Shown here piece by piece: positions 1 to 31,400 of a stretch of 35,546 nucleotides of DNA (position 1 is the stretch's first letter; each line of letters starts with the position of its first letter). The stretch lies in NCBI GenBank assembly GCA_024278555.1, contig JAJRSX010000135.1:1-35546 (forward strand), in the 5' to 3' direction. A program made the translations under genes and the position numbers. The notes beneath the pieces are model-generated. The model made no database searches. It saw only the letters and a list, made by a program, of their open reading frames with translations, and was not told where the DNA came from. The stretch comes from a bacterium (lineage in GTDB: Bacteria; CG2-30-53-67; CG2-30-70-394).

Positions 1-813
1 CGCCGCCCCCTCCCCCACCCCCGGGATCTTGGGCACCTCCACCCCGGCGGCGGCGAGGTCGCGGCCGTAGCGGCGCAGGACCAGCGGCGCGGTGGCCCAG
101 GCGAAGGTGAGCACGGGCGGGGCCACCGCCGCCTGCGCCGCGGCCACCGTGGCGCTGAAGGTGGTGTGGCCGGCGAGGAGCGGCTCGGGGAGGCCGTGGC
201 GCAGGCGGACGAAGGGGATCTCCGCCAGGAGGACCCGCGCCCCGGCGGCGTCCACCGGCCGCCCCTCGGCGGTGTAGATGACCCGCCGCGCCGGCGCCGG
301 GTAGTAGAACTCCGGGTGCGACTCGAACGGCGGCGAGACGAGGACGTGGGAGAGGCGGTCCTGGGGCCGGCCGAAGAGGGAGAGGGCGTAGCCGGCGTAG
401 AAGCCCATGGTCTTGCGGCCGCCGGCGAGGGAGACGTGGAGCGCCGCTTCGGGGTCGGAGGTGAGCTGCCGTACCTGTTCGGTGATGGCGTCGGCCGCCG
501 CCTCGTTGTCGCCCGGGGTGCGCAGGTCGCCCACCCCGGTGTCGGCGCCGATGGTGTGGATGGTGGTCTCATCGAAGCGGATGGCACCGAGGTGGTAGTC
601 GCGGCGGAGGCGCTGAAACCAGCCGGGCTCGCCGGCGAGCAGCGTCAGCCGCGCCCGCTCCGCCCCCTCGGCGGTGGTCAGCAGGTGGACCTCGGTGGGC
701 GTCCACGGCGACTCCGAGGCCACGGCGAGGCCGTAGAGGGTCTCGGTGACTACCTGCGGCGTGAGGCCGGTGGCCACCAGGAGGATGCGACGCGGGTAGG
801 TGTGGGGGTCCAT
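1..813 (-). CDS. CRISPR-associated ring nuclease-like protein, NE0113 / Csm6-like family (C-terminus outside window)
   Basis: Reverse-strand reading from ATG at 813 is open to the window edge: MDPHTYPRRILLVATGLTPQVVTETLYGLAVASESPWTPTEVHLLTTAEGAERARLTLLAGEPGWFQRLRRDY...LHVSLAGGRKTMGFYAGYALSLFGRPQDRLSHVLVSPPFESHPEFYYP. The N-terminal RRILLVxTGLxPQVVTETLY and SLAGGRKTMGFYxGYALSLFGRPQDRLSHVLV motifs are characteristic of this family. GAGGAG ribosome-binding site just upstream. Missing from the ORF track because no stop codon lies inside the window. Confidence 0.85.
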   Translation of the reverse strand, partial: MDPHTYPRRILLVATGLTPQVVTETLYGLAVASESPWTPTEVHLLTTAEGAERARLTLLAGEPGWFQRLRRDYHLGAIRFDETTIHTIGADTGVGDLRTPGDNEAAADAITEQVRQLTSDPEAALHVSLAGGRKTMGFYAGYALSLFGRPQDRLSHVLVSPPFESHPEFYYPAPARRVIYTAEGRPVDAAGARVLLAEIPFVRLRHGLPEPLLAGHTTFSATVAAAQAAVAPPVLTFAWATAPLVLRRYGRDLAAAGVEVPKIPGVGEGAA

Positions 814-1666
814 GAGGGCTCCTCGCGTACCGGTGGGATCAGAGGCCCCGGCAGGTGGGTGGCGGAGAGAGGGAGGGGGCTCCGCCATCAACACCCCACC
901 GGGGCCCAACCATGAGGTGCAGGTAGGTGCTGATCGCCCTCGCCACCCCTACCCCCCCATCTCCCACGAGCAGCCGTCGAGGAGGTACCGGGCGAACCTC
1001 TTTCCATTCCATATAGATCCTCGTGCCATCGCCACCGAATGGCCACCACTCTCCACCCGCCCCATCACCTCCGCACCTGCCGCAAGCTTGCCACTTCGAC
1101 CCTGCCCATACAGCGTCCGGGGTCCGAGGCTACGGAGGACGCAAAGGCTCACGCCGGGGATGAGACGGCAAATGGGCTGGCGGGTGGGTGGGGTGGCGCC
1201 TTGCAGGCCACTGCGTGCGCTCGTTGGTGATCACCTCCGCCACCGATCTCCCGTCATGGCTCCGATCGACCGCGGTGCCGCCAAGATCGGTCGGGATACC
1301 TTTCAGCGGATATCGATAAACGAATGCCACGGAAATCAATAGGTTACATCGTTGTATTTATTGTCTTGTCGTTTTCTTTACATTTTTTCCGCGCATGGCG
1401 CACATTTTTTGCTAAGTTTTGTTAACCATTCGGGCGCGTCGCACGGTACGAACCTTGCGTAGATTCTGGTGAGGTAATCCTCGGAATCAGGGAGAGGAGA
1501 TGGTCGGCCACTCCTCCTACAGGGCGGTTGGAGGCAGATGTCGGCGCAACGGTGGGCGAGGAGTGTGCCTGCACCGCGTGCACGATCCGTCCGGGGCCGC
1601 ACCGCCGGGAGACGCGGCGCGGGCCCTGTTTCGATTCGGGTAGCAACACCGAGAGGAGGAAGGGCC

Positions 1667-4600
1667 ATGAAGGGTGCCCGCCGTCAGCGCAGACTCTTTA
1701 TGACGTGGATCGGGAGCGGCTGGTTCCGGCAGCTTTGCCCCATGGTGGCGCTCCTCTTCTTCGTCGAGGGGCTCGCGGCCGCCACCGGCGGCCTGCCGCG
1801 ACCACCGGTGGCCCTCGACCTCGGGGTGGCGACCGCCGAGGCGGAGGAGGGGGGCGGCGGCTGGCTCACCGCCACCGTGGCGGCGGACTTCCACGACGCC
1901 GCCATCCAGGAGCAGCTCGCCACCCTCGAGCCGGGGGTGGAATCGGCCGCCGCCTTCGTGGCACGGGAGATCGGTTTCGAGGCGTACACCGGCTCCCTGC
2001 GCGGCGCCCGCGGCACCCTGTGGTCGGGCGCCGGCAACAGCCTCGACCAGGCCTCCCTCCTCATCGCCCTCTTGCGCGGCCAGGGGATCGGCGCCCGCTA
2101 TGTGCGCGGCAGCCTGGGGGAGGCGGAGGTCGAGGCGCTCATCGCCTCCATGTTCGACGCCGAACGGCTCGCCAGCGCGGTGGGCTACGTGCCACCCGGG
2201 TGGCTGCGCAGCGACCCCCTGCACGATCCCGAGCTCGCCGCCACCCTCGCCGACCACTGGTGGGTGGAGCTGGAGGATGGGAGCCAGATCGATCCCGCCT
2301 TCGCCGACGGCCTCCCCCGCGGTACGGCGGAGACGCGCTACTTCGAGCTCCCGAACGGGGTGCGCCACACGGTGACCCTGCGCCTGCAGGCCGACCTCCA
2401 GGGCTTCCTCGGCCTCGACGAGACCGAGACCCCCCTGGAGCACACCTTCGATACGGCGGCGGTCTATGGCCGGCCGATCACCCTTGGCCACTTCATCAAC
2501 GTCCAACAGCCGCCGCAGATCATCAATCTGGGGCTCAAGTCGTACACCTACAGCCCCTACCTGGCCGTCGGCGACGGCGACGGCAACCCGGACAACGACC
2601 GGCTCATCCGCGGTCGCGACTACGTGGAGCAGTTCGGCCTCTTCGGCCTGGTGAACGCCACCCTCACCCGCCTCACCCTGGAGATGGAGGTGGACGACCC
2701 GGGGCGCGCGCCCGCCCTCTACCACCGTGTCCTCCTCGACCGGATCGGCTTTGCCGCGCGCCACGGCGGCGGCGCGCCGGTGGCGGTGGCAAGCGATGCG
2801 CCCGCCCTCAGCGAGTACGACCAGACGGTCCTCTACATCACCCCGGGCTTCCTCGCCCCGGAGGCGGTGGCCCCCCTGCAGGCGGCACGCGCCGACCTCG
2901 CCGACCGCCTCGCCCCCCTCACCCCGGTGGTGGCGGGGCTGGCCGAGGTGGAGCCGGCCACCCTCAGCGGGGCCGACCGGGCGGACCTCCAGGCGTACAC
3001 CACCCTCACCCGGCGGCTCCTGGGCGCCGGCGGCGCCGTCGTGGCGGCCGCCTTCCTGCTCGACTCCGACTCCTACACCCGTACCATGCGGGCGAGCCAC
3101 CTCACCCTCGCCTACTACGACTCACCGCGCCTCACCCTCTTCGAGGCGCGCACCCATGGCGAGGGGGCCGACTCCGCCCTGAGCCTCGGCCTCGACCTGC
3201 GGCGCAACGGCATCCATGCCATCCCCTACCCGGGGCAGAACCTCTTCAACCGCCTCGGTTTCAACTTGGTGAAGGGCCACTGGGACGCCCTCCTCGAGCA
3301 CGGCACCGTCGACCACCTCCTGGGCGGCGAGGGGCACCCCGGCGCCTCCGCCGCGGCGGTCTTCAAGGCCGCCGAGGAGCAGGGGGTCCCCATCCTCTCC
3401 CTCCACGGCGAGGCGGCGATCTCCGGCCGCCTGGAGGGGATGCCCCTCTCCGACGAGGCGCGGGCCCGGATCGGCAGCGCCTTGCGCACCGGCAAGCTGG
3501 TGAACCTCCCCGCCGCCCCGGTCACCGTGGCCGGCCGCCCGGCGATCGCCTGGTACGAGGTCGACGCGGCGACCGGCGAGATGGTGGGGGTGGCCGAGGA
3601 CGGCGGCCACCAGTCGATGCTCGAGTTCGCCCTCATCTCCGCGTTGGTCGGGGTGGGCGGCCTCTTCACGATCACCACGCTGGGCCACAATGTCACGGAT
3701 CTCTTCAGCGGTGAGCACAAGGCGATCGAGGACTACCACCCCTACGATCCGACGAACCTCAACTCGACGACCCTCAACTCCGTGGAGGCGCTCACGAGAA
3801 TGGCCACGGAGGAGACCATCCTTGGCATCAACGTGGGGTTTGCCACAGACGGCTCCGCCTCCTCCGGCGTCGAGGGGCAAGAGGTCAACCTCAGGCCCGA
3901 GCTTGATGACCTCTACACCGTGCTCGATGCCGTCGGCGGCTCCGGCAGCGTCATCGACTTCGCCGGGAGCGACACGGAGGTCCTCTCCCTCTACGCCCCC
4001 GGGCCGAGCGACCGCCACGGGGAGCGGGTCGCGGCCCCCGGGGTCACCCTGGAGGTGGTCCCGGACCCCGCCTTTACCACCAAGGCGGGAGAGAGCCCCC
4101 TCCCCACCGCCTTCCGCGCCCGGATCACCAACACCGGCAACGATGGCGCCTTCCGCCTCACCGCCACCCCGCCGGAGGGGTGGGAGCTCCTCACCGCCCG
4201 AGAGGTGAGCCCCATCCCCGCCGGGGTGACCGGCGAGGTGAGCCTCTACCTCCGCCCCCTCCCGGGGACCTCCCTCCCCGCCCCCGGCGCCCCCCTCGAC
4301 TTCGCGGTCACCGTGACGCGCGAGGCGGCGGCCGCGGGTGCAGTGGTGGCGAGCGCGGTGGGGGTGGAGAGCGGCCTCACCCTGGCGGTCGCCTTCACCA
4401 TGCCGCCGGTCCACCGCCTGCGCCTCACCGCCGCACCGGAGGGGCTGGATGCCGCCCCCGACGGCACCGCGTCCACGACACTCACCCTCACCAACGCAGG
4501 CAACGTGGAGGAGGGGGTCGACCTGACCGTCGACCTCCCCGATGGGGTCACCGCCGGCCCCCTCCCGGCCCACCTCGACCTGGCGCCGGGGGAGAGTGCC

Positions 4601-7600
4601 ACGCCCACCCTCGCCCTCACCGCCCACGGTCTGCCCCTGGCTACCGGCCACACGGCCGCCGCGACGGCGACCTACGGCGACCTGGAGGCGAGCGTGACGC
4701 TGCCGCTCCACATCGCCGCCCCCGGGGCCCTGCCGGCCCTGGCCGGGGCCACCGCCGCCGCCACCCTCGGCCGCGACGGCCTCGCCGAGACCCTCCGGAG
4801 CCTCGGCGACGACCTCGGCCGCCTCTACGAGACGCCGGCGAGCGACCTCGCCCGCGACCGCGTGGTGAGCGGCATCGCCACCCTCACCCCCCTCCTCGAT
4901 GACCCCCTCCTCGCCCCCTTCGCCGCCGGCCTCACGGCGGCGGGCGCCGCGGTGGCGGGGGCCGCACCGGCGGAGACGGCGGCCGCCCTCGACCACCTCG
5001 GCCCCCCCCTCACCGCCCTCGCCGAGCGCCTCGGCCACCTCGCCGCCCACGACGTCGAGGTCGCCCTGCGCCCCAACACCGCCGAGGCCCTCCCCGAGAC
5101 CCCCACCCCCTTCAGCCTCTACCTGCGCAACCGCGGGAGTGAGACCACCACCTACCACCTGCGCCTGGAGGGGATCCCGTCGGGGATCGACGCTACCTTG
5201 AGCCGGACGGAGATCACCCTGCCGCCGGGGATGGCGATCGCCCCCGGGGTGAGCGGTGACGACCTCCTCGATGTCGCCGTCGAGGCCACCCTCACCCAGC
5301 CGGCCCACGAGCTCACCGCCTTCAACTTCCGGGTGGTGGCGACCCCCGAGGGGGCGCCGGAGATCGCCCGCACCGCCCGCGGCCGCTTCACCGCCCGTGA
5401 CGAGCAGGTGGGTGTCGTCGCCGTGGAGGTGGAGCCCCCCTTTGTCGATCCCGGCACCCCGGTCCATCTCGCCGCCCGGCTGCTCAACGCGGTGAACCGC
5501 GACCGCTCCATCCTCGTGGCGGCCGTGGTGCGTGGCGCAGACGGCAGCGTGGTCGCCACCCTTCCGGCCCGGGCGGCGCGGCTCACCGTCCTTGCCTCCC
5601 TCGACACGATCGACCTCGGCACCCTCGAGACCGGCGCCCTCGCCCTCGGGAGCTACCGGGTGGAGGTGGCGGTGAGTGAGGCGGACGGGACGCCGATCCC
5701 CGGGGCCACCGCCGGCGCCACCCTCCTCCTGGGCTCACCGGTCACCGCGACCCTCACCGCGAGCCCCGCCGTGGTACCGCCGGGCGAGGGGGAGGTGGAG
5801 GTGCGCCTGGTGGTGGCAGCTACCCTCGACGCCGAGGGCGGCGACCCCCTCCTCGGGGTGCGCGAGACCGCCGGCACCGGGCGGACGGTGGCGGTACGCG
5901 GCGGCTACGCCTACGTGGGCGGCACGGAGGGGGTCTCGGTCCTCGACGTCCACGACCCGCGTAACCCGCAGCTCGTCCACACCTTCGAGTCCCCCGGCGA
6001 GAACCGGATCTCGATCGACGGCGACCGCCTCCTGGTGGCCCACGGCCGCGACCTGCACCTCTACGACCTGACCGATCCGCTCCACCCGGATCCGATCGCC
6101 ACTGCCGCCGGCGGGGTCACCGGCACCCACCCCACCCACCTCGCCGTCCACGGCGACCTCGCCGTGATCAACACGGCGATCTTCGGGTGGAGCGGCTCCA
6201 CCCTCCTCTTCGTGCGCGGCGACGCCCTCCTCTTCGACGTGAGCGACCCAGCGGCACCGCGCCCCCTCGGCCTCCTCTTCGACACCCCCCAGAGCTTTCA
6301 CCCCGAGTGGCCGGGGAGCGACTTCTGGATCGGTGAGGATAGCGCTGCCACCGGTACCACCCTCTACCTGCCGAGTGCCAGCGCCCCGGGGAGCGGCGCC
6401 GGTGGGGTGGGGCGGCTGCGAATCCTCGACGTGACGAGCCCCGACACGGTGGCGGAGGTGGCCCACCTCGACCTGCCGGGGACCGCCCTCCTCCACGCGG
6501 TGGCGGTGAGCGGGGAGCGCGCCCTGGTGGCGGGGAGCACCGGCCCCTTCTCCATCCAGGGCGGCACGCCCCTGGCCAGCGGCGACCTCACCCTCCACCT
6601 CCTCGACCTCCACGACCCGCGCCACCCCACGATCCTCGGCTCCACCACCCTCGATGACGTGGCGACCAGCCGCTACCACCGCCTCTCCCTCACCGCCGGC
6701 CCGGACCACCGCTTCGTCCTGAACGGGGCGACCGTGGCGGGCGAGCCGGTGGTACGCCTGGTGGAGGCGGGCGACCCGACCCACATCGAGGTGGCCGACC
6801 TGCCGGCGACCGCGTTGGTGGCGGACTCGGACCTCGACGCCGGCCTCCTCTACACCGCGTCCACCTCGGGCCTCGCCATCTACGACCTCGGCGCCCTCCT
6901 GGGGGTGGCGGTGGGCGCCCGCATCGACCTGCCCGACGACGGCTCGGCCGACCCCCTCGCCGGCTCCTTCAGTGAGCCCCCGGCGGCGACCCTCGCCGGG
7001 GTGGAGGCCGACACCCTCGTCTGGCCCCTCACCCTCACCGCCGCCCACCCCAGCCACACGGTGACCTGGCAGAGCCGCCTCCCCGGCCTGCAGCCGGGTG
7101 AGGTGCGGGATGTCGCCATCGGCGGCACGGTGGAGTTCACCACCGGCGGGGCCACCTCCACCTTGGCCCTGGCGCCGGTGGTGGTGGCGGTGGAGCAGAT
7201 CCTCGCCCTCGCCCCCGCCGCCGCCGAGGCACGCCCGGGCGCGGCGGCGGCCTACTCCCTCACGGTGAGCAACCCGACCGCCACCGGCGTGACCTACACC
7301 CTGGCGGTGGAGGGGGTGCCGGAGGCGTGGGTGGCGCTGCCGCCGTCGGTCGAGGTGGCCGCCGGGGGAAGGGCCCAGGTACCCCTCACCCTCCGCGCCG
7401 AGCCCTTCGCCGCGGCCGGCGACCACGGCTTCGCGGTGGTGGCCGCCACCGCGGCCGGGGTCCGCGGGGAGGTCCACGGCGACCTCATCCTCAGCGGCGC
7501 CCCGGTGGCGGAGACGGCACGCCACGGGGTGGTTGCAGCGCTCATCCCGCTGCAGCCCACCGCCGGCCAGGGGAGCGAGGCCACCTACCGGGTGCGCCTG

Positions 7601-10117
7601 ACCAACACCGGCAACACCACCGCCACCTTCGACCTCAGCGGCATCTGGCCCGACGGCCTCACCGGCCGATTCGGGACGACGGCCGTGGAGGTGGCGCCGG
7701 GGGCGGATAACTACAGGGAGGTCCCCCTCACCGTCGCCCTGCCGGCGAGACACGATCCCGCGACCCTCCCCTTCACCGTTACCGCCAGCGACCCCCGCGC
7801 TCCGGGCGTGGCGGATGAGGCGGAGGCTCAGGTGGCGATCTCCACCTACGGCGTCGCCGTGGCGATCGCCCCCGAGCGGGGCGGAGCGGGCGACCTCTAC
7901 CACCTGACGGTGCGCAACACCGGGCGCAGGCGCGACACCTTCGACCTCGCCGTGGGTGGCCTCGCCGCGCCCGCGGCGACCCTCGCGGTGGCCGAGGTGA
8001 CCCTCGACCCGGGCGCCGCGCAGGAGCTCCCGCTCACCGTCGGTGACCTCGACTTCGCCCTTCCGGGGGCCACGGACCTGACGGTGGTGGCCACCTCGCG
8101 CGGGGACCGCGCGGTGGCCGGCCACGCCACCGCGGAGGTGGCGGTGGCGACCCGCCACGGCGTGGAGGTCGCCTTCGAGCCCGCCGCCGCCGAGCTGGAG
8201 GGGCCGGGTAGCGCGACCCTCCTCCTGCGGGTACGCAACACCGGCAATGTGGAGGCGGTCTACGGCGCCGCCATCACCGCGACCGGCGGGCCGCTCACCG
8301 CGAGCCTGCGCAGCCTGGCCGGCGGCCACACCCAACGCATCGACAGCTTTCACCTTCCCCCCCTGGCAAGCGGCATCCTGGCGGTGGACGCAACCCTCTC
8401 GACCGCCGGGAAAGGGAGTGTGTCGGCCACGGTCACCGCGGTGGACCAGCCGGGGCTGTCGGCCTCCGACACCGCCACCGTGGTGGCGGGCGGTCTGCCG
8501 CCGGCGGCGGCGGTGCCACCGGTGGCGGACGCCGGGGAGGACCTGCACGCCGGTGTCGGCCGCAGGGTCACCCTCGACGGCAGCGGCTCCTATGATCCGG
8601 CCGGCCGCCTGATCACCTACCGCTGGCAGGTGGCGGCGACCCCCAAGGGGAGTGGCGTCACCACCGGGGATCTGGTGGGGGCGGCCACCCCCGACCCGCA
8701 CCTCACCCCCGACGTGGCGGGCACCTACCGCCTGGAGCTGGTGGTCACGGCAGATGGGGAGGAGAGCGAGGTCGATGCGGTGGAGATCACCGCCGTCTCC
8801 GGCAACGTGCCACCCGACGCACGCGCCGGTCGCGACCGGCGCGGCCGCACCGGTGTGGCCGCGGTGGTCGACGCCACCGCCTCCCGCGACGCGGACGGCG
8901 ATCCCCTCACCTTCACCTGGCGCTTCGCCCAGCTTCCCCCCGGCAGTGGCCTCGACGATCCGGCCCTCGACGGTCGCACCGCGGCGACGGCGAGCTTCGT
9001 CCCCGATGTCGCCGGCACCTACCTCCTGGTGGTGGCGGTCTCCGACGGGAGGGCCACGGACGAGGCAGAGGTGGCCATCGTGGCTGCAGAGGCCGAGGTC
9101 GCTCCGGTGGCGGACGCCGGCACCGACCGGGCCGGCACGGTGGACGAGGCGGTCCGCCTCGACGGCGGCGGGAGCTACGACCCGGACGGCGATCCCCTCA
9201 CCTTCACCTGGTCCTTCGTGTCGCTCCCGGCGGGAAGCCGCCTGACGGACGCGGATATCGAGGCGGCGGCGACCGCCACCCCCCTCTTCGTGCCCGACGT
9301 CGCCGGCGCCTACGTGGTGCGCCTGCGCCTCTCCGACTCGATGCAGGCCAGCTTCGACAACGTGATGGTGGTGGTGACGGAGGCGTTGCCTCCCGCCGCG
9401 GTGCGGGTAGTGGAACTCCACGGCCGCGGGGGGAGCGGCGGCATCGGCGGCGTCGAGCTCCTCCTCCTCCTCGCGTGGCTGGTGTGGAGACGGCGACTGC
9501 GCACGGCCGCACTCGTCCTCCTCCTCGTGCTCCCCCACCCCGCGGCGGCCGGGGAGTGGTACCTCGGGGGTGGCGTGGGGTACGCCCACACGCGCACCAG
9601 CAGCGGCCGGCTGGAGAGCGACCTCGCCGCACGCGGCCACACGGCGGCGGTCACCCTCGACAACGACGAGGTCGGCTGGAGGCTCCTGGCGGGCTACCGC
9701 CCGTCGCCCTACTGGGGGATGGAGGCCACCTACGTCGACCTGGAAGAGGTGACCTCACGGGTTCGCGCCACCACCGACGACCCCCAGGCCCTCGTGGAGG
9801 AGACCTCTGCGGTCCACCCCTTCTCGGTGCAGGGTCTCTCCCTGGCGCCCGTGGTCCGCCTGCCGGTGGGCGAGCGCCTCGCCCTGGAGGTGACCGGGGG
9901 GCTCTTCTACTGGGAGGCCGAGGTCCACGCCGACTTCAACCTGCCGGGCGCCCCCTCGGCCAACCGCAACGAGGAGGGGCTGAACTGGCTCTTCGGCGCC
10001 GGTGCGACCTACGACCTCTCGCACCGCGTCGCCCTCCGCCTCGGCTGGCAGCGCTACCGGACGGATCGCGACGACGTGGACCTCGTCGGCCTCGATCTCC
10101 TCTATCGATTTCCATGA
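1667..10117 (+). CDS. giant secreted multidomain protein: transglutaminase-like domain, CARDB/NEW3-like domains, LVIVD-type propeller, K319/PKD-like repeats, internal GlyGly-CTERM-like signal, C-terminal OmpA-like beta-barrel
   Basis: In-frame ATG at 1667 with GAGGAGG upstream (the track start at 1538 is upstream of it). Signal-like N-terminus (WFRQLCPMVALLFFVEGLAAA). YTGSLRGARGTLWSGAGNSLDQASLLIALLRGQGIGARYVRG resembles transglutaminase-like domains. Repeated (N)TGN beta-sandwich motifs, GGYAYVGGTEGVSVLDVHDPRNPQLV propeller motifs, and three PVADAGxD...LDGSGSYDPxGDPLTFTW repeats. C-terminus is YLGGGVGYAHTR...LRLGWQRYRTDRDDVDLVGLDLLYRF. Confidence 0.9.
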   Translation: MKGARRQRRLFMTWIGSGWFRQLCPMVALLFFVEGLAAATGGLPRPPVALDLGVATAEAEEGGGGWLTATVAADFHDAAIQEQLATLEPGVESAAAFVAREIGFEAYTGSLRGARGTLWSGAGNSLDQASLLIALLRGQGIGARYVRGSLGEAEVEALIASMFDAERLASAVGYVPPGWLRSDPLHDPELAATLADHWWVELEDGSQIDPAFADGLPRGTAETRYFELPNGVRHTVTLRLQADLQGFLGLDETETPLEHTFDTAAVYGRPITLGHFINVQQPPQIINLGLKSYTYSPYLAVGDGDGNPDNDRLIRGRDYVEQFGLFGLVNATLTRLTLEMEVDDPGRAPALYHRVLLDRIGFAARHGGGAPVAVASDAPALSEYDQTVLYITPGFLAPEAVAPLQAARADLADRLAPLTPVVAGLAEVEPATLSGADRADLQAYTTLTRRLLGAGGAVVAAAFLLDSDSYTRTMRASHLTLAYYDSPRLTLFEARTHGEGADSALSLGLDLRRNGIHAIPYPGQNLFNRLGFNLVKGHWDALLEHGTVDHLLGGEGHPGASAAAVFKAAEEQGVPILSLHGEAAISGRLEGMPLSDEARARIGSALRTGKLVNLPAAPVTVAGRPAIAWYEVDAATGEMVGVAEDGGHQSMLEFALISALVGVGGLFTITTLGHNVTDLFSGEHKAIEDYHPYDPTNLNSTTLNSVEALTRMATEETILGINVGFATDGSASSGVEGQEVNLRPELDDLYTVLDAVGGSGSVIDFAGSDTEVLSLYAPGPSDRHGERVAAPGVTLEVVPDPAFTTKAGESPLPTAFRARITNTGNDGAFRLTATPPEGWELLTAREVSPIPAGVTGEVSLYLRPLPGTSLPAPGAPLDFAVTVTREAAAAGAVVASAVGVESGLTLAVAFTMPPVHRLRLTAAPEGLDAAPDGTASTTLTLTNAGNVEEGVDLTVDLPDGVTAGPLPAHLDLAPGESATPTLALTAHGLPLATGHTAAATATYGDLEASVTLPLHIAAPGALPALAGATAAATLGRDGLAETLRSLGDDLGRLYETPASDLARDRVVSGIATLTPLLDDPLLAPFAAGLTAAGAAVAGAAPAETAAALDHLGPPLTALAERLGHLAAHDVEVALRPNTAEALPETPTPFSLYLRNRGSETTTYHLRLEGIPSGIDATLSRTEITLPPGMAIAPGVSGDDLLDVAVEATLTQPAHELTAFNFRVVATPEGAPEIARTARGRFTARDEQVGVVAVEVEPPFVDPGTPVHLAARLLNAVNRDRSILVAAVVRGADGSVVATLPARAARLTVLASLDTIDLGTLETGALALGSYRVEVAVSEADGTPIPGATAGATLLLGSPVTATLTASPAVVPPGEGEVEVRLVVAATLDAEGGDPLLGVRETAGTGRTVAVRGGYAYVGGTEGVSVLDVHDPRNPQLVHTFESPGENRISIDGDRLLVAHGRDLHLYDLTDPLHPDPIATAAGGVTGTHPTHLAVHGDLAVINTAIFGWSGSTLLFVRGDALLFDVSDPAAPRPLGLLFDTPQSFHPEWPGSDFWIGEDSAATGTTLYLPSASAPGSGAGGVGRLRILDVTSPDTVAEVAHLDLPGTALLHAVAVSGERALVAGSTGPFSIQGGTPLASGDLTLHLLDLHDPRHPTILGSTTLDDVATSRYHRLSLTAGPDHRFVLNGATVAGEPVVRLVEAGDPTHIEVADLPATALVADSDLDAGLLYTASTSGLAIYDLGALLGVAVGARIDLPDDGSADPLAGSFSEPPAATLAGVEADTLVWPLTLTAAHPSHTVTWQSRLPGLQPGEVRDVAIGGTVEFTTGGATSTLALAPVVVAVEQILALAPAAAEARPGAAAAYSLTVSNPTATGVTYTLAVEGVPEAWVALPPSVEVAAGGRAQVPLTLRAEPFAAAGDHGFAVVAATAAGVRGEVHGDLILSGAPVAETARHGVVAALIPLQPTAGQGSEATYRVRLTNTGNTTATFDLSGIWPDGLTGRFGTTAVEVAPGADNYREVPLTVALPARHDPATLPFTVTASDPRAPGVADEAEAQVAISTYGVAVAIAPERGGAGDLYHLTVRNTGRRRDTFDLAVGGLAAPAATLAVAEVTLDPGAAQELPLTVGDLDFALPGATDLTVVATSRGDRAVAGHATAEVAVATRHGVEVAFEPAAAELEGPGSATLLLRVRNTGNVEAVYGAAITATGGPLTASLRSLAGGHTQRIDSFHLPPLASGILAVDATLSTAGKGSVSATVTAVDQPGLSASDTATVVAGGLPPAAAVPPVADAGEDLHAGVGRRVTLDGSGSYDPAGRLITYRWQVAATPKGSGVTTGDLVGAATPDPHLTPDVAGTYRLELVVTADGEESEVDAVEITAVSGNVPPDARAGRDRRGRTGVAAVVDATASRDADGDPLTFTWRFAQLPPGSGLDDPALDGRTAATASFVPDVAGTYLLVVAVSDGRATDEAEVAIVAAEAEVAPVADAGTDRAGTVDEAVRLDGGGSYDPDGDPLTFTWSFVSLPAGSRLTDADIEAAATATPLFVPDVAGAYVVRLRLSDSMQASFDNVMVVVTEALPPAAVRVVELHGRGGSGGIGGVELLLLLAWLVWRRRLRTAALVLLLVLPHPAAAGEWYLGGGVGYAHTRTSSGRLESDLAARGHTAAVTLDNDEVGWRLLAGYRPSPYWGMEATYVDLEEVTSRVRATTDDPQALVEETSAVHPFSVQGLSLAPVVRLPVGERLALEVTGGLFYWEAEVHADFNLPGAPSANRNEEGLNWLFGAGATYDLSHRVALRLGWQRYRTDRDDVDLVGLDLLYRFP
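5840..6900 (+). other. LVIVD-type beta-propeller region inside the giant protein
   Basis: Recurrent VAVRGGYAYVGGTEGVSVLDVHDPRNPQLV, ISIDGDRLLVAHGRDLHLYDLTDPLHPDPI, LAVHGDLAVINT...LLFDVSDPAAPRPLG and LRILDVTSPDTVAEVAHLDL units. Confidence 0.65.
8892..8920 (+). repeat. 29-nt exact direct repeat (copy 1; copy 2 at 9183-9211) within tandem K319/PKD-like domains
   Basis: cggacggcgatcccctcaccttcacctgg occurs at 8892-8920 and 9183-9211, offset 291 nt = 97 codons, encoding (D)GDPLTFTW. Confidence 0.9.
9422..9496 (+). other. internal GlyGly-CTERM-like sorting signal (GRGGSGGIGG-VELLLLLAWLVW-RRR)
   Basis: Gly-rich stretch, hydrophobic helix, Arg cluster: the tripartite layout of GlyGly-CTERM (rhombosortase recognition) tails. 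A rhombosortase-like gene lies directly downstream. Confidence 0.75.
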
Positions 10118-10758
10118 GCTCCACTGGCCCATCGAGGGGGAGGCGGCTCGACCCGGCGACCGCCCTCCCCCTCACCCTCGCCGCCGCCGCGGTGGCTGTT
10201 CAGGTCGCCGGCTGGGATCGGGCGCTCTGCTATGACCGTGTCGCCATCCTCCACGGCGAGGCGTGGCGGCTGATCACCGGCCACCTGGTCCACCTGGGGT
10301 GGTCCCACCTGGTGTGGAACCTCGCCGCCCTCGCCCTCATCTGGCCCCTCGCAGGGCGCGCCATGGGCCCGCGCGCCTGGTGGACCACCGCCGTCGTGTG
10401 CGGCGTGGCCACCTCGCTCCTCCTCCTCTGGCGCCTCCCGACCCTCGCCCGGTACGTGGGGCTGTCGGGTCTCCTCCACGGCCTCTTCGCCGCCGGCAGC
10501 CTTACCTGGTGGCGTGCGGGGAGGCGGGAGGGCGGCTACCTCCTCCTCGTCCTCGCGGCGAAGCTCCTCTGGGAGCAGGGGTTCGGCCCCCTCCCCACCA
10601 CCACCGCGATGGTCGGCGCCACCGTCGTGGTGGATGCCCACATCTACGGCGCCATGGCCGGCGCGACCAGTGCCCTCCCTCTGATTTTGCGCAGCAAAAT
10701 CAGCTCGACCAGCCGTCGCCGCCACGGTAGATTCACCCTCCGACAGGAGGAGCCATGA
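10114..10758 (+). CDS. rhombosortase-like rhomboid-family intramembrane serine protease
   Basis: ATG at 10114 overlaps the stop of the giant gene (ATGA). GEAWRLITGHLVHLGWSHLVWNLAALALIW (H-x6-H-x3-N type), YVGLSGLLHGLFAAG (GxSGxLHG active-site Ser motif) and DAHIYGAMAGA (catalytic His) match the rhombosortase layout. Confidence 0.85.
   Translation: MSSTGPSRGRRLDPATALPLTLAAAAVAVQVAGWDRALCYDRVAILHGEAWRLITGHLVHLGWSHLVWNLAALALIWPLAGRAMGPRAWWTTAVVCGVATSLLLLWRLPTLARYVGLSGLLHGLFAAGSLTWWRAGRREGGYLLLVLAAKLLWEQGFGPLPTTTAMVGATVVVDAHIYGAMAGATSALPLILRSKISSTSRRRHGRFTLRQEEP
10681..10703. repeat. perfect inverted repeat / hairpin CTGATTTTGC-GCA-GCAAAATCAG
   Basis: 10-bp perfect arms with 3-nt loop, AT-rich against a very GC-rich background, inside the 3' end of the rhombosortase-like ORF. 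Confidence 0.9.
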
Positions 10759-11167: not shown

Positions 11168-11285
11168 ATCGACGGGCCAAACCCCCACCGATTCGGACAA
11201 ATTGCGCCCCGACCGGGCTGCTATAGTCGGGTCTCAAGTTTGATCCATGCCCTGCGGCCGCGCGGGGTCACTCTTGGAGGAGAAG

Positions 11286-12710
11286 ATGAACGCACGCTCG
11301 GAAGCGGACATCCGTGTAATGCGCGCCTACGCCATCTGGACGGTGATCTGGGGGGTGGTGGGGATGGCGGTGGGGGTGCTGATCGCCGGCCAGCTCTTTG
11401 ATCCGGCGCTCAACTTCGCCAACACACCGCTGGGCCCGTATCTCACCTACGGCCACCTCAGGCCCCTGCACACCAACGCCCTGATCTACGGCTTCGGCGC
11501 CGGCTCCTTCTTCTGCATGCAGTTCTACATGGTGCGGCGGCTGTGCCGGGTAAACCTCCTCTCCGCCGGTCTGGCGCGCTTCCAGCTCTGGCTGTGGAAC
11601 CTCACCGTGGTCCTGGCGGCGGTCTCCCTGCTCCTGGGGATGAACACCTCGAAGGAGTACCACGAGCTCGAGTGGCCGATCGATCTGCTGATCGTGGTGA
11701 TCTGGGTCTGCTTCACGATCAACGTCGTGGGCACCATCTACCGGCGACGGGAGCGGGAGATGTACACCTCGCTGTGGTACATGGTCGGGGCGTTGATCGG
11801 GGTGGCGATCCTCTTTCTCGGGAACGGCGCCGAGGTGCCGGTGACTCTGTTCAAGTCGTACTCCGCCTACGCCGGGGTGAACGACGCCAATGTCCAGTGG
11901 TGGTGGGGCCACAACGCGGTGGCCTTCTTCTTCACCTTCACCCCCACGGCGATGGTCTACTACCTCCTGCCGAAGGTGACCAAGGCACCGATCTACTCCC
12001 ACCGCCTCTCCATGTTCGGCTTCTGGGGGCTGATGTTCTTCTACCTGTGGACCGGCGCCCACCACCTGATCCTCACCCCGGTGCCCGAATGGTTGCAGAC
12101 GGTGGCGATCGCCTTCTCCATGATCCTCATCGCGCCGTCGTGGGCGACGGTCTTCAACACCTACATGTCGATGACCGGCCGCTGGGAGCAGATGCGCGAC
12201 AACTACCTGGTGAAGTTCCTCGTCGTCGGGGTCACCTTCTACGGCCTGCAGACGGTGCAGGGGCCGCTCCAGGCGCCGCGCCTCTTCTCGCAGCTCATCC
12301 ACTACACCGACTACGTCCCCGGCCACGTCCACATGGGGACCATGGGCTTCTACGCGATGATCATCTTCGCCGCCCTCTACTACGCGGTGCCGAGGCTGTG
12401 GAAGACGGAGATCTACAGCGAGCCCATGGCCAACCTCCATTTCTGGCTCGCCCTGGTGGGGCAGCTCACCTACAACATCACCATGTGGATCGCCGGCATC
12501 CAGCAGGGCGCCATGCTCAAGCAGATCGGCCCGGACGGCTCCCTCGCCTACACCTTCGTGGAGACGGTCACCCGCATCGTCCCCTACTGGAAGATGCGGG
12601 CCGCCGGCGGGGTGCTCTTCTTCCTCGGGGCGCTGCTCTTCGCCTACAACATCTTCATGACCATCGCCCGGTCGAGAAGCGAGATGGCGGCGGAAGAGGC
12701 GTATGCGTAG
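11286..12710 (+). CDS. ccoN: cbb3-type cytochrome c oxidase subunit I
   Basis: MNARSEADIRVMRAYAIWTVIWGVVGMAVGVLIAGQ...YGHLRPLHTNALIYGFGAG...VQWWWGHNAVAFFFTFTPTAMVYYLLPK...HYTDYVPGHVHMGTMGF; GGAGGAGAAG RBS before ATG 11286. Confidence 0.97.
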   Translation: MNARSEADIRVMRAYAIWTVIWGVVGMAVGVLIAGQLFDPALNFANTPLGPYLTYGHLRPLHTNALIYGFGAGSFFCMQFYMVRRLCRVNLLSAGLARFQLWLWNLTVVLAAVSLLLGMNTSKEYHELEWPIDLLIVVIWVCFTINVVGTIYRRREREMYTSLWYMVGALIGVAILFLGNGAEVPVTLFKSYSAYAGVNDANVQWWWGHNAVAFFFTFTPTAMVYYLLPKVTKAPIYSHRLSMFGFWGLMFFYLWTGAHHLILTPVPEWLQTVAIAFSMILIAPSWATVFNTYMSMTGRWEQMRDNYLVKFLVVGVTFYGLQTVQGPLQAPRLFSQLIHYTDYVPGHVHMGTMGFYAMIIFAALYYAVPRLWKTEIYSEPMANLHFWLALVGQLTYNITMWIAGIQQGAMLKQIGPDGSLAYTFVETVTRIVPYWKMRAAGGVLFFLGALLFAYNIFMTIARSRSEMAAEEAYA

Positions 12711-18961: not shown

Positions 18962-21355
18962 ATGGCCCCGCCCGCGACCCGCCCCTGCGCCCACTGCGGC
19001 CTGCCCACCGACGCCGCGACCGAGCCGCCCTTTTGCTGCACCGGCTGCGAGGCGGTCTACCACCTCCTGCACAACGAGGGGCTCGACGCCTTCTACCGGC
19101 GGCTGGAGGAGGGCGAGGGCCACCCGGCGCCGGTCTCGGCGATCGCGGAGGTGGCCCCCCTCGGAATGGAGGAGGTGGAGGTGGTGCGGGAGGGGGGCCA
19201 CGCCACCGCCGCCGTGGCGGTGGAGGGGATCACCTGCGCCGCCTGCGTCTGGCTCCTGGAGCGCGGCGTCGGGCGGCTTCCCGGGGTGACACGCTTTGCG
19301 GTGAGCTTCGCCACCCACCGGGCGCACATCGAGTGGGAGCCCACCACCTGCGACCTCGCCGCCATCGACGCCCGGGTGCGTGCCCTGGGGTACGCCCTCA
19401 GGCCGGTGCGCGCGGCTGCCGGCGGCCGTGCGGAAAAGGGCGCGCTCGCCCGCCTCGGGGTCGCCGCCTTCTGCGCGATGAACGTGATGCTCCTCTCCGT
19501 GGGGCTCTACGCCGGCTACTTCCAGGGGATGACCCCGGCGGTGAAGAGATCGCTCCACCTCCTCAACTGGGGGCTCGCCACCCCGGTCCTCTTCTACAGC
19601 GGCCTCCCCTTCTGGCGCGGCGCCTGGCGCGGCCTGCGCGGCCGCGCCCTGACCATGGACCTCCTCGTGGTCCTCGGCGCCGGCCTCGCCTACGGCCACT
19701 CGGTGGCGGTCGCCCTCACCGGCGCGGGCGAGACCTACTTCGACTCGGTGGTGATGATCGTCGCCCTGCTCCTGACCGGCCGATATCTGGAGCACCGCGC
19801 CCGCGCCCGCGCCTCCGCCGCCACCGACCGCCTCGCCTCCCTCCTGCCGGCCACCGCCCGGGTGTGGCGCGAGGGCGGCTGGGTGGGGCTGCCCCTCGCC
19901 ACGGTGGCGACCGGCGATCGCCTGCAGGTGCGGCCGGGGGAGCGCATCGGAGCGGACGGCCGGGTGGCCGCGGGGGTGACCGAGGTGGACGAGTCGATGC
20001 TCACCGGCGAGTCCCGGCCGGTGGCGAGGGCCGAGGGCGGCCGGGTGACCGCCGGGACCCTCAACCTCGCCGCCCCGATCGAGGTCGTGGTCGAGGCGAC
20101 CGGCGGCGCCACCCGCCTCGCCGCCATCACCCGCCTGTTGGAGCGCGCCCAGAGCGAGCGGCCGCCGGCCACACGCATCGCCGACCGGGTCGCCTCGTGG
20201 TTCGTGGCGGTGGTGGTGGGGGTGGCGGTGGCGAGCTACCTCTACTGGCGCGGCCACGGTCGGCCCGACCCGCTCCTGCCGGCGATCACCTGCCTCATCG
20301 TCGCCTGCCCCTGCGCCCTCGGCCTCGCCACCCCGGTGGCGGTGGTGGCGGCGACCGCGGCGGCGGCGCGCCGGGGGATCCTCTTCAAAGGGGGCTCCGC
20401 CCTGGAAGCCCTCGGCCGGGTGCGGCAGGTACTCATCGACAAGACCGGCACCCTCACCCGGGGCGACCTGCGCCTTACCGAGGCGGTCGCCACCGCGGAC
20501 TTCACCGACGCCTCGGCCGCACTCGCCGCGGCCGCGCCACTGGCGGCGATGTCGCGCCACCCGGCGGCACGCCCCCTCGCCGTTGGCGACCGGGGTGCCA
20601 CCGGCACGACGGTGGCGGAGGTGGCCGGGTACGGCGTGGTGGGCGAGGTGAACGGCCGGCGATGGCGCCTCGGCCGCCCGGCCTGGGCACTGGTCCCGCC
20701 CCCGACCCGGGAGGAGGCGGCGGTGGTCGACCGGTGGCAGAGCGACGGCGCCACGGTCGTCGCCCTTGGCGACGGCGACGGCCACCGCGCCCTCTTTCGC
20801 CTCGCCGACACGGTCCGCGACGGCGCGGCCGAGGCGATCGCCGCCCTGGCCGCGGCCCGGATCGAGGCCACCATGGTCACCGGCGACGCCCCGGCCACCG
20901 CCGCGGCGATCGCCGGCCGCCTCTCCCTCCCCCACTGGGCGGCGGGCCTGTCGCCGGAGGCGAAGCTCGCCCGGGTGGCGGCGGCGCGGGAGGCCGGGCC
21001 GGTGGCCATGGTGGGCGACGGGATCAACGACGCCCCGGCCCTGGCCGCCGCCGACGTGGGCATCGCCCTGGCCCGGGGGCTGGACGTGGCGGTGGAGGCG
21101 GCGGATGTGCTCCTCCTGGGTGAGGACCTGGGTGCCCTGGCCGAAGCGGTGGCGATGGCACGCGCCAGCCGCCGGGTGATCCGCGAGAATTACGCCCTCG
21201 CCGTGGTCTACAACCTGATCACCCTGCCGCTCGCCGCCGCCGGCCTTATGTTGCCGTTGTTCGCCGCCACCGCCATGGCCGCCTCGTCGCTCACCGTTAC
21301 CCTCAACAGCCTGCGGCTGTTGCGGAGACAACCCGCGAATGGATCGAGAGGCTGA
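18962..21355 (+). CDS. ccoI: copper-translocating P-type ATPase for cbb3 oxidase assembly
   Basis: N-terminal CAHCG...FCCTGCEAVYHLL, GITCAACVWLLE (CxxC), CPCALGLATPVAV, DKTGTLTRG, MVGDGINDAPALAAADVGIAL; sits between the ccoG/ccoH-like genes and ccoS. Confidence 0.96.
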   Translation: MAPPATRPCAHCGLPTDAATEPPFCCTGCEAVYHLLHNEGLDAFYRRLEEGEGHPAPVSAIAEVAPLGMEEVEVVREGGHATAAVAVEGITCAACVWLLERGVGRLPGVTRFAVSFATHRAHIEWEPTTCDLAAIDARVRALGYALRPVRAAAGGRAEKGALARLGVAAFCAMNVMLLSVGLYAGYFQGMTPAVKRSLHLLNWGLATPVLFYSGLPFWRGAWRGLRGRALTMDLLVVLGAGLAYGHSVAVALTGAGETYFDSVVMIVALLLTGRYLEHRARARASAATDRLASLLPATARVWREGGWVGLPLATVATGDRLQVRPGERIGADGRVAAGVTEVDESMLTGESRPVARAEGGRVTAGTLNLAAPIEVVVEATGGATRLAAITRLLERAQSERPPATRIADRVASWFVAVVVGVAVASYLYWRGHGRPDPLLPAITCLIVACPCALGLATPVAVVAATAAAARRGILFKGGSALEALGRVRQVLIDKTGTLTRGDLRLTEAVATADFTDASAALAAAAPLAAMSRHPAARPLAVGDRGATGTTVAEVAGYGVVGEVNGRRWRLGRPAWALVPPPTREEAAVVDRWQSDGATVVALGDGDGHRALFRLADTVRDGAAEAIAALAAARIEATMVTGDAPATAAAIAGRLSLPHWAAGLSPEAKLARVAAAREAGPVAMVGDGINDAPALAAADVGIALARGLDVAVEAADVLLLGEDLGALAEAVAMARASRRVIRENYALAVVYNLITLPLAAAGLMLPLFAATAMAASSLTVTLNSLRLLRRQPANGSRG

Positions 21356-28823: not shown

Positions 28824-30125
28824 ATGCCCGCCACCACCGACTTCACCATCGACAGCCTCGGCCCGTGCCACGTCCCGTCGCCGGTCCACACCGATGACTT
28901 CGTCCCCGACGGCGAGCGCATCCTCCACGACGTCTGCCTCGACCGGGTGAGCGACCGGCTCGCCCGCGGCGAGGAGCCACCCTCGTTCGAACGCGCCGGG
29001 CCGCGCCGGGAGATCTACTTCGACCCGACCAAGACGAAGGCGGCGATCGTCTCCTGCGGCGGCCTCTGCCCGGGGATCAACGACGTCATCCGGTCGCTGG
29101 TCATGTGCCTCCACTACCGCTACGGGGTGCGCAACATCCTCGGCATCCGCTACGGCTACCAGGGGCTCATCCCGCGCTACGGCCACGAGGTGATCGAGCT
29201 CTCCCCGTCGGTGGTCGAACGGATCCACGAAGAGGGCGGCTCCTTCCTGTCGTCGTCACGCGGCCACCAGGACGTCGGAGAGATGGTGGACGCCCTGGAG
29301 CGGATGAACTGCTCCATCCTCTTTTGTATCGGCGGCGACGGCACCCTGCGCGGCGCCCGGGCGATCGCCGAGGAGATCCTCGCCCGCCACCTGAAGATCG
29401 CCGTGGTCGGCCTGCCGAAGACGATCGACAACGACATGTGCTACATCGAAAAGACCTTCGGCTTCGAGACCGCCTTCACCGTCGCGGTCAACGCCATCCG
29501 CTCGGCGCACCTGGAGGCCAAGGGGGCGCCCAACGGCATCGGCCTGGTGAAGCTCATGGGGCGCGAGTCCGGTTACCTCACCGCCAACGCCGCCCTGGCG
29601 CTGAACGACGCCAACTTCGTCCTCATCCCCGAGGTCCCCTTCGACCTGGAGGGAGACAACGGCTTCCTGGAGGCGCTGCACCGCCGCATGGCCACGCGCC
29701 ACCACGCGGTAATCCTCGTCGCCGAGGGCGCGGGCCAGGCCTTCTTCGAACACGACGACGCCCGCGACGCCTCCGGCAACAAGCGGCTCCACGACATCGG
29801 CAGCTACCTCAAGGAGCGGATCAACGGCTACTTTCACGACCGCGGCGACGAGGTGAACCTCAAGTTCATCGACCCGAGCTACATCGTCCGCGCCACCCCG
29901 GCAAACGCCTCCGACTCCATCTACTGCACCCTCCTCGGGGTCAACGCGGTCCACGCCGCCATGGCCGGCAAGACCAACATGGTGGTGGGCAAGTGGAACA
30001 ACATCTTCACCCACGTGCCGATCGCCGCGGTCACCTCGCGCCGCAACCAGATCGACCCCGACTCCACCCTCTGGCAGTCGGTCATCGAGGTCACCGGCCA
30101 GCCCCGACGGATGGTCAACGGGTAG
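28824..30125 (+). CDS. 6-phosphofructokinase family protein
   Basis: AAIVSCGGLCPGINDVIRSLV, ILFCIGGDGTLRGARAIAEE, VVGLPKTIDNDMCYIEKTFGFETA, LVKLMGRESGYLTANAALA. Confidence 0.94.
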   Translation: MPATTDFTIDSLGPCHVPSPVHTDDFVPDGERILHDVCLDRVSDRLARGEEPPSFERAGPRREIYFDPTKTKAAIVSCGGLCPGINDVIRSLVMCLHYRYGVRNILGIRYGYQGLIPRYGHEVIELSPSVVERIHEEGGSFLSSSRGHQDVGEMVDALERMNCSILFCIGGDGTLRGARAIAEEILARHLKIAVVGLPKTIDNDMCYIEKTFGFETAFTVAVNAIRSAHLEAKGAPNGIGLVKLMGRESGYLTANAALALNDANFVLIPEVPFDLEGDNGFLEALHRRMATRHHAVILVAEGAGQAFFEHDDARDASGNKRLHDIGSYLKERINGYFHDRGDEVNLKFIDPSYIVRATPANASDSIYCTLLGVNAVHAAMAGKTNMVVGKWNNIFTHVPIAAVTSRRNQIDPDSTLWQSVIEVTGQPRRMVNG

Positions 30126-30185: not shown

Positions 30186-31400
30186 ATGGACAGGGTCATC
30201 ATCGAGGAGCGTTACCGGTTCGTACCCCCCTATCGCGGGACCGTCTGGCCGACCCTCTTTCGGGCCCTGGCGCCGTGGCAGGCGCGGCGCAAGTACGGTA
30301 TCGGCGAGGTCCGCTGCTTCGGGGTGGAGCACCTGCGCGCGTCGCTGAGCGCCGGCCACGGGATCCTCCTCACCCCGAACCACTGCCGGCCCAGCGACCC
30401 GCTGATCGTCGGGCGGCTGGCGCAAGAGGCCTCCACCCTGCTCTTCATCATCGCCAGCTGGCACCTCTTCAAGCAGAGCCGCTTCGCCGCCTGGTACCTG
30501 CGCCGAGCCGGCGCCTTCTCCATCTACCGCGAGGGGCTCGACAAGCAGGCGCTGAAGAGCGCCGTCGAGATCTTGAGCCAGGCGACGCGGCCCCTGGTGA
30601 TCTTCCCCGAGGGGGTGGTCAGCCGCGCCAACGACCGCCTCGAAACCTTCATGGAGGGGACCTCCTTCATCATCCGCAGCGCCGCCAAGCGGATGGCCAA
30701 GGAGCGTCCCGACGGCAAGGTGGTCGTCCACCCGGTGGCGATCCGCTACTTCTTCCACGGCGACATCGACGCGACCCTGACGCCGGTCCTGTCGCGCATC
30801 GAGCAGCGCCTGTCGTGGGCGCCGCAGGACCGACTCCCCCTCGACCAGCGGATCGTCAAGCTCGGCTCCGCGCTGATGGCGTTGAAGGAGATCGAGTACC
30901 TCGGCGAGCCCCAGTCCGGCGACCTGCGGCCGCGGCTGCGACGCACCATCCAGGCGATCCTCGAACCGACCGAGGCCGAGTGGCTCGGCGGCCGCGAGCC
31001 CCCCACCGACGACGTGGTCGCCCGGGTCAAGCGGCTCCGCGCCCGGATCCTGCCGGGGATGATCGAGGGGGAGACGAGCGCCGCCGAGCGCGCCCGGCGG
31101 TGGCAACAGCTCGCCGACCTCTACCTCGCCCAGCAGATGTCCCACTACTCCCCCGGCTACATCTTCGAGACCCGGGCGCCCGAGCGGAAGCTGGAGACCG
31201 TCGAGCGGTTCGAAGAGGACCTCACCGACCGCGCCACCGTCCACCGCCCCATGTCCGCCGCCATCCAGGTGGGCGAGGCGATCGAGGTCCGCCACCCGCC
31301 GAACGCCGCGCGCGACAACGACCCGCTCATCGGCGAGCTCCGCAACCGCATCGACGAGATGCTCGCGGCCCTCGCCGACCGCCGCCCGCCTGCCGGGTGA
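30186..31400 (+). CDS. PlsC-like 1-acyl-sn-glycerol-3-phosphate acyltransferase family protein
   Basis: LLTPNHCRPSDPLIVG (NHx4D), AFSIYREG, VIFPEGVVSRANDRLETFMEGTSFI. Confidence 0.85.
   Translation: MDRVIIEERYRFVPPYRGTVWPTLFRALAPWQARRKYGIGEVRCFGVEHLRASLSAGHGILLTPNHCRPSDPLIVGRLAQEASTLLFIIASWHLFKQSRFAAWYLRRAGAFSIYREGLDKQALKSAVEILSQATRPLVIFPEGVVSRANDRLETFMEGTSFIIRSAAKRMAKERPDGKVVVHPVAIRYFFHGDIDATLTPVLSRIEQRLSWAPQDRLPLDQRIVKLGSALMALKEIEYLGEPQSGDLRPRLRRTIQAILEPTEAEWLGGREPPTDDVVARVKRLRARILPGMIEGETSAAERARRWQQLADLYLAQQMSHYSPGYIFETRAPERKLETVERFEEDLTDRATVHRPMSAAIQVGEAIEVRHPPNAARDNDPLIGELRNRIDEMLAALADRRPPAG

Follow-up and report, generated by a model that had tools for sequence, protein, structure and literature searches.

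An outer-membrane barrel fused in frame behind an internal GlyGly-CTERM-like tag: a probable two-protease polyprotein that recurs across genomes

The fusion gene, its junction and the adjoining rhombosortase

The window analyzed here comprises positions 1-35,546 of the contig JAJRSX010000135.1 of assembly GCA_024278555.1. At positions 1667-10117 it carries a gene for a protein of 2,816 amino acids, in which a signal peptide, a long passenger, an internal sorting tag, an internal signal peptide and an outer-membrane barrel follow each other in one reading frame, and the stop codon of this fusion gene overlaps with the gene of a rhombosortase, i.e., a rhomboid-type sorting protease. All window features named below lie on the forward strand; G and L codes denote the genomes and loci compared, G000 being the window's own genome. 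The frame contains no stop codon from 1478 to 10114 and its likely start is the ATG at 1667, which is preceded by the strong Shine-Dalgarno (SD) sequence GAGAGGAGGAAGGGCC (duplex energy -12.0). The third-position G+C amounts to 0.88-0.96 and stays in one frame throughout 9300-9700, showing no sign of a frameshift, and homologues with the same fused layout were found (L001, L002 and L167).

The junction between passenger and barrel consists of four elements. A Gly-rich GlyGly-CTERM-like motif, GRGGSGGIGG (9422-9451), contains the expected rhombosortase site and is kept in all fusions as a Gly-rich motif. It is followed by a first hydrophobic helix (VELLLLLAWLVW, 9452-9487), which was recognized by hydropathy and is modeled by AlphaFold as a helix of residues 10-22, by the Arg-rich turn RRRLRT (9488-9505), which has no acidic residue and is common to the tag and to the second signal, and by a second signal-like helix (AALVLLLVLPHPAAA, 9506-9550) ending in PHPAAA with an AxA site. 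All of the 21 tabulated junctions contain a pair of hydrophobic stretches, a turn that includes two or more Arg or Lys residues and an [A/V]xA at the equivalent place just before the barrel, and the turn is free of acidic residues in 20 of these 21. Moreover, three pairs of junctions show purifying selection with ratios of non-synonymous to synonymous substitution rates (dN/dS) of 0.17, 0.32 and 0.04. The window tag shows the tripartite build of GlyGly-CTERM, composed of Gly motif, helix and basic cluster, and a rhombosortase is encoded in the same genome, even in the adjacent gene. Its placement differs from that expected by the GlyGly-CTERM model TIGR03501, i.e., the extreme C-terminus, as more than 200 residues continue in frame after the tag. 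The tag contains no Cys and reaches 10.8 bits against the MYXO-CTERM model TIGR03901 (cut-off 20).

The barrel (9551-10114) is of the eight-stranded OmpA type. It matches the Pfam families OmpA_membrane (PF01389, 52.5 bits) and OMP_b-brl, AlphaFold predicts two short helices followed by an eight-stranded barrel (mean pLDDT 84), and a Foldseek search of the barrel model against the PDB returned OmpA on top (9fzd/1qjp). The Pfam scan found no OmpA peptidoglycan-binding domain in the window barrel, a domain that is present in the fusions L152-L154. An earlier reading of the letters alone (the sequence-only reading) had proposed an uninterrupted open reading frame (ORF) of 2,816 amino acids with an internal tag, a second signal-like helix and an eight-strand-like barrel in one frame; the open frame, the continuous codon signal, the anatomy at 9422-10114 and the structural comparisons confirm this.

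The gene at 10114-10758 overlaps the fusion stop by ATGA. Its product matches the rhombosortase model TIGR03902 with 148.1 bits over 3-153/154 (cut-off 84) and Pfam Rhomboid with 46 bits, and by eye its translation contains GLSG and AHIYG, corresponding to the Ser (GxSG) and His motifs of rhomboids. The gene has no SD sequence of its own (energy -0.1), which together with the ATGA overlap suggests that its translation is probably coupled to that of the fusion gene. The protease that should act on the tag is thus encoded together with its substrate, and this adjacent rhombosortase, overlooked by the sequence-only reading, is the strongest support for a polyprotein. G579 and G108 also have a rhombosortase gene immediately downstream of the fusion, the copy of G108 being cut by the contig edge.

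The passenger starts with a signal peptide (MKGARRQRRLFMTWIGSGWFRQLCPMVALLFFVEGLAAA, 1667-1784), assigned by inspection, which is followed by a transglutaminase-like core (1937-2218; PF01841, 26.6 bits). In this core the stretch GNSLDQASLL stands where the catalytic Cys is expected, and a Ser is seen in L001 as well (by eye, unaligned), making the core possibly a Ser-for-Cys, inactive enzyme. Further on, there is an LVIVD repeat (5873-5986; PF08309, 22.3 bits), a FixG_C-type Ig-like domain (PF11614; 7250-7426 being the best of three stretches) and, directly before the tag, PKD-like domains (8531-9217; PF22352 and PF18911). Long relatives of the passenger in the Verrucomicrobia metagenome-assembled genomes (MAGs) L005 and L006 end without a sorting tag or barrel, showing that the passenger alone is no predictor of the cassette. 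The other neighbors, i.e., a COX1-like gene (11247-12707), a P-type ATPase (18962-21352), a phosphofructokinase (28824-30122) and an acyltransferase (30186-31397), give no functional hint.

Recurrence, origin and link to sorting proteases

The weight of the fusion does not lie in a single open junction. At the G+C content of the window, a junction of 46 codons is left open by chance with a probability of about 0.5-0.6, which is unremarkable alone. Multiplied over 19 junctions, some of them at 40-53% G+C, the probability of finding no stop is 7e-14 before any frame penalty and with the junctions treated as unrelated, and it is because the layout recurs that the fusion carries weight.

Recurrence was searched for with junction-plus-barrel profiles, which detect only fusions whose barrels resemble that of the window, in a class sample (369 genomes from the class of G108) and a phylum sample (399 genomes from its phylum). 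Altogether, a fusion of the GlyGly (GG) type is present in 23 genomes, comprising the window, the symbionts and the finds in class and phylum. The tubeworm-symbiont MAGs L001 and L002 and the close relative L167 (genome G140) encode in one frame the same passenger, about 44% identical to that of the window, and behind it the same tag, second signal and barrel. The class sample contains in-frame fusions in G108, G403, G547, G440, G438, G349, G579, G400 and G344, fusions with full OmpA, i.e., barrel plus peptidoglycan domain, in G434, G281 and G543, and one with FecR plus barrel in G426; the phylum sample adds G1185, G1139, G1161, G1274, G1312 and G1188. The fusions of G547, G440 and G403 are compact, with 695-783 amino acids. 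The C-terminal modules vary between fusions, and the fused passengers are diverse as well (propeller with DUF11, Big_1, lectin-like, cadherin/He_PIG and ASPM-TSP3). Carriers are the tubeworm-symbiont MAGs and other Pseudomonadota, and many of the genomes are MAGs. In a search of 386 genomes related to that of the window, almost all from other classes, no fusion besides that of the window was found, suggesting that the fusion type is concentrated in Pseudomonadota. The sequence-only reading would have been undone by homologues with two normal ORFs that exposed the window's fusion as an assembly error; as independently assembled symbiont genomes keep the single frame, the fusion is confirmed as real and is no assembly error.

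The copy of G066 is rearranged, and L007 has a broken passenger in a genome where two truncated copies of the cassette lie next to an assembly gap. Five candidates (L118, L156, L111, L121 and L125) lack the tag-helix-signal unit in front of their barrels and were left out of the count; in some of them the related barrel is joined C-terminally to other modules, namely an OmpA domain and cadherin-like domains in L118, a very long cadherin-like part in L156 and FecR in L111.

The window's genome contains a second fusion, L097 (G000:C206:4541-8794, reverse strand), composed of a TSP3-like passenger, a GGCVATRD...NGRRW tag, MRALLGSLLLLALCLPRPAEA and a FadL/OMPP1-type barrel. This tag contains a Cys, and the open frame of 1,417 amino acids is cut by the contig end. 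The C206 junction (L064:1600-1860, reverse strand) weakly matches the NCBIfam model NF058595, 'lipo-invert putative C-terminal anchoring domain', with 17.2 bits (cut-off 37). In the same genome, L186 (G000:C189, match at 4719-4781, reverse strand) is a beta-propeller-like frame of 486 amino acids ending in GGSGGGGCETVPNGGAAAAWPMLLPLALLPILRRWSSGAR, an ordinary C-terminal tag of the Cys type, so that two classes of tags seem to be in use in this genome.

Moreover, the fusions are linked to sorting proteases. Rhombosortase is present in the symbiont genomes and, within the class sample, in 13/13 genomes with a GG fusion, G108 with its 72 bits at the contig edge included, compared to 10/24 barrel-bearing genomes without fusion or adjacent pair (Fisher p=3e-4), in a test that ignores phylogeny, that compares groups partly picked after the matches had been seen and that leaves out the six fused genomes of the phylum sample. 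The GspE ATPase of the type II secretion system (T2SS) scores over its cut-off in 14/17 fusion genomes, including that of the window. Furthermore, the arrangement is not bound to rhombosortase. The fusion L155 in G450, a further find of the class sample, has a JDVT-CTERM tag (NF033191, 33.5 bits, cut-off 27) in a genome that encodes MrtJ (98.7 bits, cut-off 75), and in L182 (G452:C76:3000-8775, reverse strand 9-3262) an unfused JDVT-CTERM passenger, the barrel, two other genes and MrtJ stand in a row on one strand. This shows that GG/rhombosortase and JDVT/MrtJ, two unrelated tag/protease systems, share one arrangement.

Besides the fusions, there are analogous units made of two ordinary ORFs. 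In G427 the GG-tagged passenger overlaps the barrel gene in a different frame, and its frame of 862 amino acids, first taken for a fusion, was reclassified as an overlapping pair; in G635 the ATG of the barrel lies shortly past the passenger stop. These adjacent pairs, together with that of G452, show that passenger and barrel form a unit. A tree of 41 barrels requires six changes between fused and unfused states, at least three of them forced by well-supported branches, with gain and loss being indistinguishable, and does not support a single origin of the fusion. The fusion is probably a derived and not obligatory state of a two-gene unit, and the simplest story would be a unit that loses its stop codon from time to time. 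Such a loss may be tolerated because both new ends would be trimmed: the tag would still stop transfer, and its Arg cluster would double as the n-region of the barrel signal.

Processing of the fusion protein and alternative explanations

The fusion protein is probably a polyprotein from which rhombosortase and signal peptidase I would release a surface protein and a barrel partner resembling TraA and TraB of Myxococcus (see below), with predicted cleavages, topology, surface location and partnership. In this process the N-terminal signal peptide would direct the passenger through Sec, the helix of the tag would stop the transfer with its Arg cluster remaining in the cytoplasm, and the second helix would restart translocation and carry the barrel into the periplasm. 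Rhombosortase would cut after GG, and the passenger would reach the cell surface through the T2SS with a lipid-linked C-terminus, a route proposed from studies of VesB. The second cut, after AAA, would be made by signal peptidase I and free the barrel for outer-membrane insertion by the beta-barrel assembly machinery (BAM), and a small two-helix hairpin would remain in the inner membrane. Passenger and barrel would most likely act together like TraA/TraB and be produced in a fixed 1:1 ratio. The two-protease polyprotein put forward by the sequence-only reading is supported in so far as the fusion is kept in homologues and a rhombosortase gene overlaps its stop, the cuts themselves being predictions.

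Several observations weigh against the polyprotein. The isolated window tag reaches 12.5 bits with TIGR03501, below the cut-off of 15.5, and is GlyGly-CTERM-like without being over threshold by this model; the tag cut out of the G579 fusion scores 17.2 bits. A TIGR03501 search of G000 found nothing at E<=0.001 and weak matches only at E<=10, which is no evidence of absence since a model of 22 positions is too short for E-values. In most fusions no rhombosortase adjoins, and the co-occurrence test has the limits given with it. In the symbiont MAG L003 a frameshift within the Gly tract disrupts the frame. Finally, in the G108 fusion (L098, G108:C48:442-2550, reverse strand) the Arg codons CGA AGG AGG AAG ACC ATG provide a perfect SD sequence for an in-frame ATG (AGGAGG-AAGACC-ATG, -11.7).

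The last point leads to an alternative that we consider unlikely, namely that two genes came into one frame by stop loss. In this case, internal initiation would supply most of the barrel, and the fused chain would be a minor and unimportant read-through product. Besides G108, where separate translation of the barrel is possible, the C206 fusion of the window's genome has a fair SD-ATG (-7.3), unfused pairs exist, and lost stops are easily kept at high G+C. However, the fusions persist at 40-53% G+C, and in the window itself the internal GTG at 9482, which the sequence-only reading had named as a possible separate start of the barrel, has an SD value of -2.8, whereas random sites have a stronger median of -3.5. 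Between the helices, L157, L201 and L204 lack any candidate start, and the starts of most other relatives are poor.

Less probable still is an uncut, autotransporter-like protein, in which the barrel would tether the passenger, still attached to it, to the outer membrane. The order of an N-terminal passenger and a C-terminal barrel is that of autotransporters, and related barrels are fused C-terminally without any tag (L118, L156 and L111). However, the two hydrophobic helices and their Arg turn should retain the chain at the inner membrane, the barrel is small, having eight strands compared to the 12 of a type V autotransporter translocator, and the AxA site and the linkage to rhombosortase would be left unexplained. 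An assembly or sequencing error that merged two genes, conceivable in a draft genome of 211 contigs and in view of the broken Gly tract of L003, has a negligible probability, as it is already refuted by the fused homologues in independent assemblies and on large contigs (G140, G547, G1161 and G1185) and does not fit the continuous codon signal.

Known systems and biological meaning

The fbcH product of Bradyrhizobium, giving cytochromes b and c1, is a polyprotein cut by signal peptidase at an internal signal peptide; unlike the window's fusion, it consists of respiratory proteins and has no sorting-tag protease. One precedent is published, MXAN_5598 of Myxococcus xanthus, in which an internal MYXO-CTERM lies between an adhesin region and an outer-membrane barrel with an OmpA domain, and which its authors liken to TraA plus TraB, proposing that two genes were fused and that the protein is processed mid-chain (PMC11980579). 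It shares with the window the large adhesin-like region, the internal sorting tag and the barrel in a single ORF. It differs by its MYXO-CTERM (Cys) tag, by the glutamic protease myxosortase and by being a lone example in a discussion, whereas the fusions described here combine a GlyGly-type tag with a serine rhomboid protease, which is in some cases encoded in the same operon, and occur in many genomes.

TraA, carrying MYXO-CTERM, and TraB, composed of a barrel and an OmpA domain, are encoded in Myxococcus by ORFs that overlap by four bases (PMC3325183), and TraB is needed for the adhesin function of TraA (PMC6626042). As in the window, a tagged passenger is followed by a barrel and both are coupled, being fused here and overlapping or adjacent in G427, G635 and G452. 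Unlike the window, TraA/TraB are two ORFs with a tag containing an invariant Cys, a PA14 domain and an OmpA domain, and we claim no sequence membership for the window. For the tag, rhombosortase of Vibrio cholerae was shown to cut VesB, whose exposed C-terminal Gly is joined to a glycerophosphoethanolamine moiety and which exits via the T2SS (PMC6219818). VesB and other GlyGly-CTERM proteins share with the window the Gly-rich motif, helix, Arg cluster, rhombosortase and T2SS genomes (PMC6219818, PMC13393428), but the tag of VesB stands at the extreme C-terminus with nothing beyond. No paper joining rhombosortase with a polyprotein was found among the open-licence papers searched, and fused or internal tags are unmentioned in the Haft 2011 paper. 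With MXAN_5598 as precedent, the idea of an internal sorting tag before a barrel is not wholly new; the novelty lies in the versions with GlyGly/rhombosortase and with JDVT/MrtJ and in how many there are, in the variety of their passengers and barrels, in the operon that includes the cognate protease and in the conserved junction with its two predicted cuts.

More generally, and tentatively, bacteria might repeatedly make pairs of surface protein and barrel as cleavable polyproteins via unrelated intramembrane sorting proteases (rhombosortase, MrtJ and myxosortase), with the barrel as a partner in the outer membrane by which the tagged protein is anchored or clustered. C-terminal sorting tags could then serve as cleavable linkers, and tagged surface proteins would have hidden barrel partners in more than one phylum. 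Sorting tags are usually sought at protein ends, so that annotation easily mistakes such fusions for a single odd outer-membrane protein. If the polyprotein reading is true, the fusions would reveal for many tagged surface proteins which partner they have in the outer membrane, and both the outer-membrane needs of such proteins and the action of rhomboids on a helix in the middle of a chain would become testable. Moreover, this would add a family of two-membrane-protease polyproteins to the short list of cellular polyproteins of bacteria.

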